From contig NZ_LT629762.1 of assembly GCF_900105155.1 (NCBI RefSeq), positions 3,780,501 to 3,844,500 on the forward strand: a stretch of DNA of 64,000 nt, read 5' to 3'. Every line of letters begins with the position of its first letter. The first letter of the stretch is position 1. Source of the DNA: Pseudomonas prosekii. Its GTDB lineage: Bacteria; Pseudomonadota; Gammaproteobacteria; Pseudomonadales; Pseudomonadaceae. Below, piece after piece: positions 37,037 through 38,194 of this stretch. The notes beneath the pieces were generated by a model. The model was not told the DNA's origin. It saw only the letters and a list, made by a program, of their open reading frames with translations, and ran no database searches. A program made the position numbers and the translations under genes.

Positions 37037-37113
37037 CGGGGTATAGCGCAGTCCGGTAGCGCGCCTGCTTTGGGAGCAGGATGTCAGGAGTTCGAATCCC
37101 CTTACCCCGACCA
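37037..37113 (+). tRNA. tRNA-Pro (TGG), copy 1
   Basis: The 77-base cloverleaf has acceptor CGGGGTA / TACCCCG and an encoded CCA. The anticodon loop CTTTGGGAG gives TGG. It is identical in sequence to the copy at 37292. Confidence 0.97.
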
Positions 37114-37291: not shown

Positions 37292-37368
37292 CGGGGTATA
37301 GCGCAGTCCGGTAGCGCGCCTGCTTTGGGAGCAGGATGTCAGGAGTTCGAATCCCCTTACCCCGACCA
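37292..37368 (+). tRNA. tRNA-Pro (TGG), copy 2
   Basis: An exact copy of the 77-base tRNA-Pro at 37037, with encoded CCA. It lies directly behind a terminator with no visible promoter of its own. Confidence 0.96.
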
Positions 37369-37442: not shown

Positions 37443-37480
37443 ATAAAAAGCCCCGATTCTTCATGGAGAATCGGGGCTTG
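37443..37480 (-). terminator. terminator after the EGKCG/EF-hand gene
   Basis: The AAGCCCCGATTCT / AGAATCGGGGCTT hairpin has a T-run on the minus strand (AAAAA at 37445-37449 as read on the plus strand). It lies 40 bases past the stop of the gene at 37521. Confidence 0.85.
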
Positions 37481-37520: not shown

Positions 37521-37979
37521 TCAGACGCCGTCTTGATCTTTCAGGTGTTCGAATAGGCCTTTCGGCATTTTTTTGCCATTGGCTTCGAAGTTGGCTTTGA
37601 CGTTGTCGTAAGCCTCTTGCTCGTCGATGAAGCCATCGTGGTTTTTGTCGATCTTGTCGAAGTCGGATTTTGGCGCGACAGCCTTGAACTCGGCGCGCGA
37701 GACCTTGCCGTCGCCATTGGTATCAGTCTTGGCCATCGAGGCGTCGCCGCATTTACCCTCGCCACACTTGCCTTCGGGGGTCTTCGCCGATTGCTCGGCT
37801 TTGCCTTCACCGCATTTACCTTCGCCACACTTGCCTTCAGGCGTTTTCACCACTTGCTCAGCCGAGGCCAGCAGGTAGCCCTGGGTGAGCGGCTGTGCAG
37901 CGAATACAGAGCCGGACAACATCATGCCGCCGGCCAGCACAGCGCCGAGCAGACCAATAGTATTGTTGGTGTGGGACAT
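37521..37979 (-). CDS. secreted HvfA-like EGKCG-repeat protein with EF-hand pair
   Basis: The 152-residue protein has three parts. Residues 1-27 are a Sec signal peptide (MSHTNNTIGLLGAVLAGG.. ending VFA). Residues 45-78 hold two copies of KTPEGKCGEGKCG with four Cys (51, 56, 72, 77); a fifth motif has Ala in place of Cys (EGKA, 58-61). Residues 86-97 and 111-122 are two complete EF-hand loops (DTNGDGKVSRAE, DKNHDGFIDEQE), so calcium binding is likely. The EGKCG motif is that of HvfA/bufferin peptides, whose Cys are turned into copper-binding oxazolone-thioamide by DUF692-DUF2063 enzymes. No such enzyme gene is in this window. CCAGGAGAGTTGAA precedes the chosen ATG. Confidence 0.85.
   Translation of the reverse strand: MSHTNNTIGLLGAVLAGGMMLSGSVFAAQPLTQGYLLASAEQVVKTPEGKCGEGKCGEGKAEQSAKTPEGKCGEGKCGDASMAKTDTNGDGKVSRAEFKAVAPKSDFDKIDKNHDGFIDEQEAYDNVKANFEANGKKMPKGLFEHLKDQDGV
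37746..37847 (-). repeat. imperfect tandem coding repeat (EGKCG units)
   Basis: A 63-base unit encoding residues 45-65 is followed by a partial copy encoding residues 66-78. The two share the KTPEGKCGEGKCG core with several silent differences, so the peptide sequence has been kept while the DNA diverged. Confidence 0.8.
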
Positions 37980-38194
37980 TTCAACTCTCCTGGGTTGCAC
38001 GACACAACCGCTCGATAAAGGATGCCGCGTGAGTGCGGCGTGCCCCGCAGCAGGCAGTGCCTTGCTCGGGTGTGGCCATTTAGCCGGGCGGGTGTATCGC
38101 TACTGTGTCGCGCGAGGGGGAGTTTGTAAGCGAGAGGGATGAAACGGCGGGGAGATACAGTGAGACACAGATCTACAGGCTTGTGAGTCAAAAA

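Follow-up and report, generated by a model that had tools for sequence, protein, structure and literature searches.

The precursor gene and its locus

The window, by which we mean the whole 64,000-nucleotide stretch of Pseudomonas prosekii DNA that was analyzed, holds on its minus strand a gene (ATG at 37979–37977, stop at 37523–37521) for a 152-residue precursor, the N-terminus of which was judged by eye to be signal-like. The stretch QPLTQGYLLASAEQ lies between this N-terminus and the EGKCG motifs of the Cys core, which is built from two KTPEGKCGEGKCG units (residues 45–57 and 66–78) with each of its four cysteines inside an EGKCG, and a pair of EF-hand loops follows (Table 1). An earlier note on this DNA had described a secreted-type protein bearing four EGKCG motifs plus a pair of complete EF-hand loops, situated beside tRNA genes and ndh in a window free of modifying-enzyme genes, and all of this was borne out; it had given neither the strand nor the lineage-specific nature of the second repeat unit.

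Table 1. Features of the precursor gene and its flanks, in window positions
Feature	Position	Strand	Basis or remark
HvfA-type EGKCG protein with EF-hand pair, 152 aa	37521..37979	-	ORF, NCBIfam and Pfam models
Signal-peptide-like stretch, residues 1–27	37899..37979	-	Sequence; cleavage site estimated by eye
LxxGYxxA stretch, residues 31–38, conserved	37866..37889	-	Alignment, 42 rows
Cys core, residues 45–78, two KTPEGKCGEGKCG units, Cys 51, 56, 72, 77	37746..37847	-	
EF-hand loop 1, DTNGDGKVSRAE, residues 86–97	37689..37724	-	Pfam models, sequence
EF-hand loop 2, DKNHDGFIDEQE, residues 111–122	37614..37649	-	Pfam models, sequence
Likely ribosome-binding site GGAGAG	37985..37990	-	By eye
Two-box operator: box 1 38154–38169, inverted box 2 38093–38109	38093..38169	-	Layout also at hvfBC and hvfX
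Terminator-like hairpin 3' of gene, 13 pairs then T-run	37448..37479	-	

The precursor passed the NF050137 KCGExKCG_twice domain model (34.5 against a cut-off of 19.5 bits), in agreement with the motifs read from the sequence, and fell below the cut-off of NF050188, the full-length HvfA equivalog model (31.6 against 95 bits), for which reason we call it HvfA-type and not HvfA. Four Pfam EF-hand models scored above their cut-offs, including EF-hand_5 at two stretches (37.9 against 25.9 bits), and the order of the parts, a short EGKCG core followed toward the C-terminus by two EF-hand_5 domains, is that by which Buf_EGKCG|EF-hand_5 chimaeras are recognized. Among 1663 candidates, 1167 homologues were found at E ≤ 1e-3, so the resemblance is more than chance; the search was biased toward query-like sequences, and 120 of the 1167 were listed. 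Lanmodulin was considered and rejected: the LanM equivalog model was missed (23.7 against 135 bits) and PDB matches to lanmodulin, which we take entry 8fns to be, were weak (E about 0.001), although the protein may have a lanthanide role.

The neighbors of the gene in the window are four tRNA genes and an ndh-type ORF, with a clpB-type ORF farther out, the names ndh and clpB being presumptive ones based on the sequences. With its operator, likely ribosome-binding site, and terminator-like hairpin, the precursor gene appears to form a unit by itself; seven terminator-like sites were counted in the region, against 1.2 expected. Two tRNA-Pro(tgg) genes lie within 260 bp (37037–37113 and 37292–37368), the second apart from the Asn-Pro-Lys run.

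Repeat units and sequence conservation

Five positions distinguish the two 13-codon units, and the change at each of them is synonymous. Given that 21% of single changes are expected to be synonymous under neutrality (26% with transitions weighted 3:1), the probability of this outcome is near 0.001; the earlier note had likewise pointed to silent-site differences between the units. In a sample of 99 Pseudomonas genomes, the ndh-locus gene was present in 19, being intact in 17 and frame-broken in two (G046 and G011). A single EGKCGEGKCG is carried by 15 of the 17 intact orthologues, three EGKCG motifs by G087, and four by P. prosekii, so the second repeat unit is lineage-specific. The earlier note had asked whether orthologues keep their cysteines: at least two EGKC motifs are kept in 17 of 17 intact orthologues and in 35 of 35 ndh-locus loci from a set of named genomes (the best 80 of 366 loci, with up to 3 kb of DNA on each side), and the answer was less favorable for three of the 120 listed homologues (P0024, P0026, and P0037), which have one GKCG only.

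In an alignment of 42 rows, in which the query was joined by 41 homologues out of the 120 listed, L31, G34, and Y35 are invariant, and the conserved LxxGYxxA stretch may be an enzyme recognition element. The EF ligands are also among the invariant columns, all liganding positions being kept in both loops. Two canonical EF loops conserved to this degree would suit a protein engaged mainly in calcium signalling of the EfhP kind, with the Cys core secondary, and the accessible text of Antoine et al. 2025 (PMC12452194) raises a possible calcium role for EGKCG/EF fusions. We nonetheless judge this account decidedly unlikely, as EF-less relatives with the Cys core share the operator described below and adjoin hvfX or HvfB, and no EF-only relative lacking the core was found among the matches inspected in the 99 genomes.

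Joining a copper-type module to a calcium module had been thought unusual, a view that did not hold: EGKCG/EF-hand fusions are a published group of MNIO-linked precursors in the accessible text of PMC12452194, and at least one EF loop was present in 27 of the 35 HvfB-adjacent precursors among the best 80 of 366 named-genome loci. Permuted precursors (EGKCG, EF, EF, EGKCGEGKCG) were also seen directly upstream of HvfB, at L079 4125–4511 (G039) and L077 3759–4250 (G035).

Modifying enzymes and their co-occurrence with the precursor

The P. prosekii genome is a single 6.09-Mb contig, and the search of it that the earlier note had called for returned two DUF692 and two DUF2063 genes, arranged as two pairs at 4.07 Mb and 5.39 Mb, all outside the window. 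Equivalog models identify the members of the 5.39-Mb pair as HvfB (418.4 against a cut-off of 360 bits) and HvfC (270.5 against 142 bits), and residues 10–276 of the 279 of HvfB align with the solved DUF692 structure 3bww (271.8 bits). No precursor was found beside hvfBC at 5.39 Mb, and the distance from there to the precursor is 1.57 Mb; in other lineages the precursor adjoins hvfBC. The description of the precursor as an orphan thus stands locally and fails genome-wide. The HvfX equivalog is a DoxX gene (155.1 against 80 bits) with a dienelactone hydrolase gene after it.

The enzyme of the pair at 4.07 Mb is a BufB equivalog (355.2 against 310 bits), and the locus reads by eye as a Buf1 cluster with sigma and anti-sigma genes and a DUF2282-like peptide of its own, for which no NCBIfam match was found. 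The cluster is like the hvf genes in having an MNIO, a DUF2063 partner, and a DoxX gene, and unlike them in its DUF2282-like precursor, BufB-type enzyme, and sigma/anti-sigma genes and in lacking the two-box operator. Maturation of the window precursor by BufB and its DUF2063 partner would draw on a pair that is intact and a BufB model that is passed, but these differences, together with genome G011, where the precursor has decayed although MNIO genes below the HvfB cut-off were kept, led us to reject this pair as the less likely maturase, and its involvement appears highly improbable. Adjoining the cluster is an ORF of 1167 aa with GYGSTxTAG repeats (L006 17–3520), which by its repeat motif we presume to resemble an ice-nucleation protein.

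Of the 99 genomes, 41 gave a precursor-like match and 40 an HvfB scoring over the cut-off; both were present in 40 genomes, neither in 58, and the precursor alone in one, G011 (Fisher's p = 5e-27, without correction for shared ancestry). In G011 the precursor is frame-broken, HvfB and the regulator are absent, and the MNIO genes fall below the HvfB cut-off. Among the best 80 of 366 named-genome loci, 35 were at ndh with no HvfB in the flanking DNA (up to 3 kb on each side), 35 were beside HvfB, and 10 belonged to neither class. A tree was built from BufB and 40 of the 42 HvfB matches over the cut-off (G036 and G047 were left out), and it placed P. prosekii HvfB in a supported split clade of 19 rows (96/97), in 18 of which no EGKC ORF occurs within 800 bp upstream of HvfB; an operon-type group, with support of only 82/73, has such an ORF upstream in 16 of 16 rows.

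The earlier note had left two choices, a distant enzyme or unmodified cysteines, and the first is favored by the HvfB and HvfC equivalogs and by the finding that precursor and HvfB are jointly present or jointly absent in 98 of the 99 genomes. If the cysteines were unmodified, the protein would be a plain thiol/EF-hand metal binder of the periplasm; no adjacent enzyme gene was found at the ndh locus in any of the 19 sample genomes that have it, and the accessible text of Antoine et al. (PMC12452194) allows that unlinked precursors may be unmodified. Against this, HvfB accompanies the precursor in 40 of 41 genomes with a broken gene as the sole exception, one operator is common to the precursor, hvfBC, and hvfX, and EF-hand relatives adjoin HvfB elsewhere, so that we consider unmodified cysteines improbable.

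In genome G088 only one HvfB scored above the cut-off, whereas three EGKCG/EF precursors lie dispersed (L069, L070, L071, and L072), which suggests that one enzyme pair serves several precursors. As for the two frame-broken ndh-locus orthologues, the genome of L025 (G046) keeps HvfB and the regulator and also has a short precursor, and that of L066 (G011) is without both HvfB and the regulator.

A two-box operator shared by dispersed loci

From aligned promoters of orthologues of the precursor gene and of short or permuted precursors, we derived an operator composed of a TGTATCGCnnTGTGTAC-like box and an inverted GACACAnnnnnGATACA with a span of 76–77 bp. A relaxed form of this pattern had six sites in the 6.09 Mb of P. 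prosekii, compared with none for the reversed control, and 185 matches in 57 of the 99 genomes, compared with three for the control, on which grounds a chance operator was rejected; the 185 include a few overlapping doubles, one in a TG repeat (G036), and sites without a recognized target. Three of the sites in P. prosekii precede the window precursor, hvfBC, and a DUF2790 gene divergent from the regulator/kinase pair beside hvfBC, another precedes the HvfX-equivalog DoxX gene, and the last two, which lie to the left and right of a second regulator, precede genes for a secreted repeat protein free of Cys and for an alpha/beta hydrolase with a signal sequence. Precursor, hvfBC, and hvfX occupy three distant loci, each behind the same operator, and the other three sites flank two paralogous OmpR-type regulator genes. 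The Cys-free repeat protein (L117 2653–3039, minus strand) has a signal sequence closely like that of the short HvfA of G053, and its PtrA match was below threshold (29.1 against 31 bits).

We examined 29 operator loci, one per genome, from 29 of the 56 other genomes with matches. Twelve precede DUF2790/DipZ genes, 10 of these with the regulator alongside; eight precede hvf genes (two a short precursor and hvfX, two hvfX and hvfB, two hvfB, and two the ndh-locus precursor); four precede the hydrolase, one a PtrA-like gene, and one a distant HvfX-like gene; and three have nothing recognized downstream. Box 2 was seen at every one of the 19 ndh-locus genes from the 99-genome sample; in the named genomes, 34 of the 35 genes at ndh had the full pattern, as against one of the 35 adjacent to HvfB. 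Upstream of HvfB, the exact operator was found in 12 of the 19 split-clade rows, and in the other seven one or both boxes were seen with no more than one mismatch. Since 21 genomes that lack HvfB have operator sites too, the regulon extends beyond hvf, and non-hvf genes are served as well.

The candidate regulator

Beside hvfBC are genes for an OmpR-type regulator and an EnvZ-type kinase, and the second regulator is 89% identical to the first. With orthologues defined by an identity of 84% or more, the regulator was present in 57 of the 99 genomes and the operator in 57, with both in 54 and neither in 39 (p = 2e-20, uncorrected for shared ancestry). The operator alone was found in G011, G018, and G022, the G018 site looking like chance, and the regulator alone in G009, G051, and G086. 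There were 69 regulator genes in total, 55 of them in genomes with listed sites; 42 of these 55 had a listed site at most 400 bp away, and 44 of the 148 distinct sites listed were at most 400 bp from a regulator gene. The regulator was present in 36 of the 40 HvfB genomes, the exceptions (G008, G012, G069, and G078) having operon-type genes.

These patterns of occurrence and position suggest, as the most likely binder of the operator, the OmpR-type regulator encoded next to hvfBC, its 89% identical paralogue, or both. It may instead be a real operator that is bound by some other regulator, given the three genomes that have it without the OmpR-type regulator, the 13 of 55 regulator genes with no site nearby among those listed, and the fact that proximity does not equal binding; yet regulator and operator occur jointly in 54 of 57 genomes, and the proximity of 42 of the 55 regulator genes to a site extends to genomes both with and without hvf genes, which makes another binder unlikely.

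With a two-component pair and a DsbD-like gene on the flanks of hvfBC, DsbRS was considered as the regulator. This copper-sensing two-component system (Yu et al. 2022, per the accessible text of PMC10141476 and PMC13101516) is similar in being a pair near a thiol-disulfide gene; DsbRS is divergent from dsbDEG, whereas the P. prosekii pair is divergent from the DUF2790 gene and a DipZ-like fusion. The DsbD-like gene by hvfBC is a shorter DsbD_TM/thioredoxin fusion, two DsbD_N genes lie elsewhere, and some 2 kb from dsbD (4.96 Mb) there is a different regulator, 36% identical. The pair beside hvfBC may be DsbRS or another two-component system.

Proposed break-up of the hvf set

Three genomes (G033, G034, and G098) have a contiguous arrangement of operator, hvfX, hvfB, hvfC, and hvfA(EF), with only a one-mismatch box 2 seen before hvfA itself. 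In 10 of 10 split genomes a short EF-less hvfA stands just before hvfX, behind an exact operator in eight. This short gene is absent from P. prosekii, where the operator leads straight to hvfX (L116 4150–4330), so the EF-hand protein is the only recognized EGKCG precursor in this genome. That the loss of the short hvfA is linked to the EGKCG duplication in P. prosekii is speculation on our part.

Proposed function and comparison with known systems

We consider it likely that P. prosekii has a dispersed oxazolin-type gene set, with hvfA, hvfBC, and hvfX at three loci under a two-component regulon, and our results suggest that the broken-up hvf cluster still works as one unit. We infer that an envelope signal, perhaps copper, thiol, or oxidant stress, would activate the two-component system, which would raise hvfA, hvfBC, and hvfX together. 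HvfBC, encoded 1.57 Mb away, would bind the precursor via its signal and LxxGY stretch and turn its cysteines into 5-thiooxazoles in the cytoplasm; the precursor, presumably of the Sec-exported oxazolin/captophorin type, would be exported after modification and bind copper in the envelope, and the EF hands of the exported protein may carry calcium or some similar ion. Since HOCl induces a doxX/DUF692/DUF2063 operon of Haemophilus influenzae through RpoE2, according to the accessible text of PMC7907618, oxidant stress is no less plausible than copper as the signal.

The oxazolone-thioamide chemistry assumed in the earlier note has been superseded, HvfA-type cysteines now being assigned as 5-thiooxazoles in the accessible parts of PMC13097082 and PMC13419390, and the predicted mass loss, 4 Da for each Cys, is unaffected. 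Removal of the signal peptide is reported to leave HvfA far less modified, so the signal peptide seems to serve as a leader. Some evidence is against the dispersed-set reading: in part, the one-GKCG homologues (three of the 120 listed), while FonBC modified a two-repeat peptide and not a one-repeat peptide (PMC13097082, accessible text); and further, the missed NF050188 model, the retention of HvfB in G046 even though its ndh-locus precursor is broken, the exceptions to the pairing of operator and regulator, the inexact boxes before some HvfB and hvfA genes, and the presence of the operator at non-hvf genes and in genomes that lack HvfB.

The Buf_EGKCG|EF-hand_5 chimaeras of PMC12452194 resemble the P. 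prosekii precursor in having an N-terminus of signal or membrane type, a short EGKCG core, and a C-terminal pair of EF-hand_5 domains, and stand-alone precursor genes are described there as well; 67 of 2583 Buf_EGKCG genomes in that work lack MNIO genes, and its accessible text describes no dispersed set or shared operator. HvfABCX of H. influenzae likewise combines an EGKCG precursor with a Sec signal (signal-like in P. prosekii), an HvfB MNIO, an HvfC partner, and a DoxX-like HvfX (PMC13419390, accessible text), but is one operon, RpoE2-dependent and HOCl-induced (PMC7907618, accessible text; matched to hvf by gene order), whereas in P. prosekii the genes lie at three loci, the precursor has an EF-hand pair, and the candidate regulator is of the OmpR type. 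Fontiphorin and the captophorins share the EGKCG repeats, the MNIO with DUF2063 partner, and the 5-thiooxazole, and differ in that the fon genes form one cluster and in having no EF-hand, a term absent from the main text of PMC13097082 as accessible.

The protein type is already known; what is new is the dispersed hvf set united by one operator. No prior report of such a set was found in our literature search, most subscription papers being outside its reach, and nothing relevant was found there on the operator or on DUF692 under two-component control. Mining for modified peptides leans on gene neighborhood; here the shared operator, rather than proximity, connects a seemingly orphaned precursor with its probable enzymes, so other orphans may be paired likewise. 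The Pseudomonas hvf genes also gain a regulator candidate, whereas the similarly composed cluster of H. influenzae is under an ECF sigma factor, and the reason for joining EF hands to a copper-type peptide becomes testable in ordinary soil bacteria. One possible extension, which we offer tentatively, is an exploded RiPP cluster, its precursor, maturase, and membrane helper genes dispersed but held together as one operator/two-component unit, with a two-metal envelope protein as its product, in which calcium or a lanthanide on the EF pair would tune the thiooxazole copper arm. In P. alloputida KT2440, DUF2790 genes are lanthanide-responsive (PMC11520305, accessible text), which we take as a lead only where the P. 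prosekii set is concerned.
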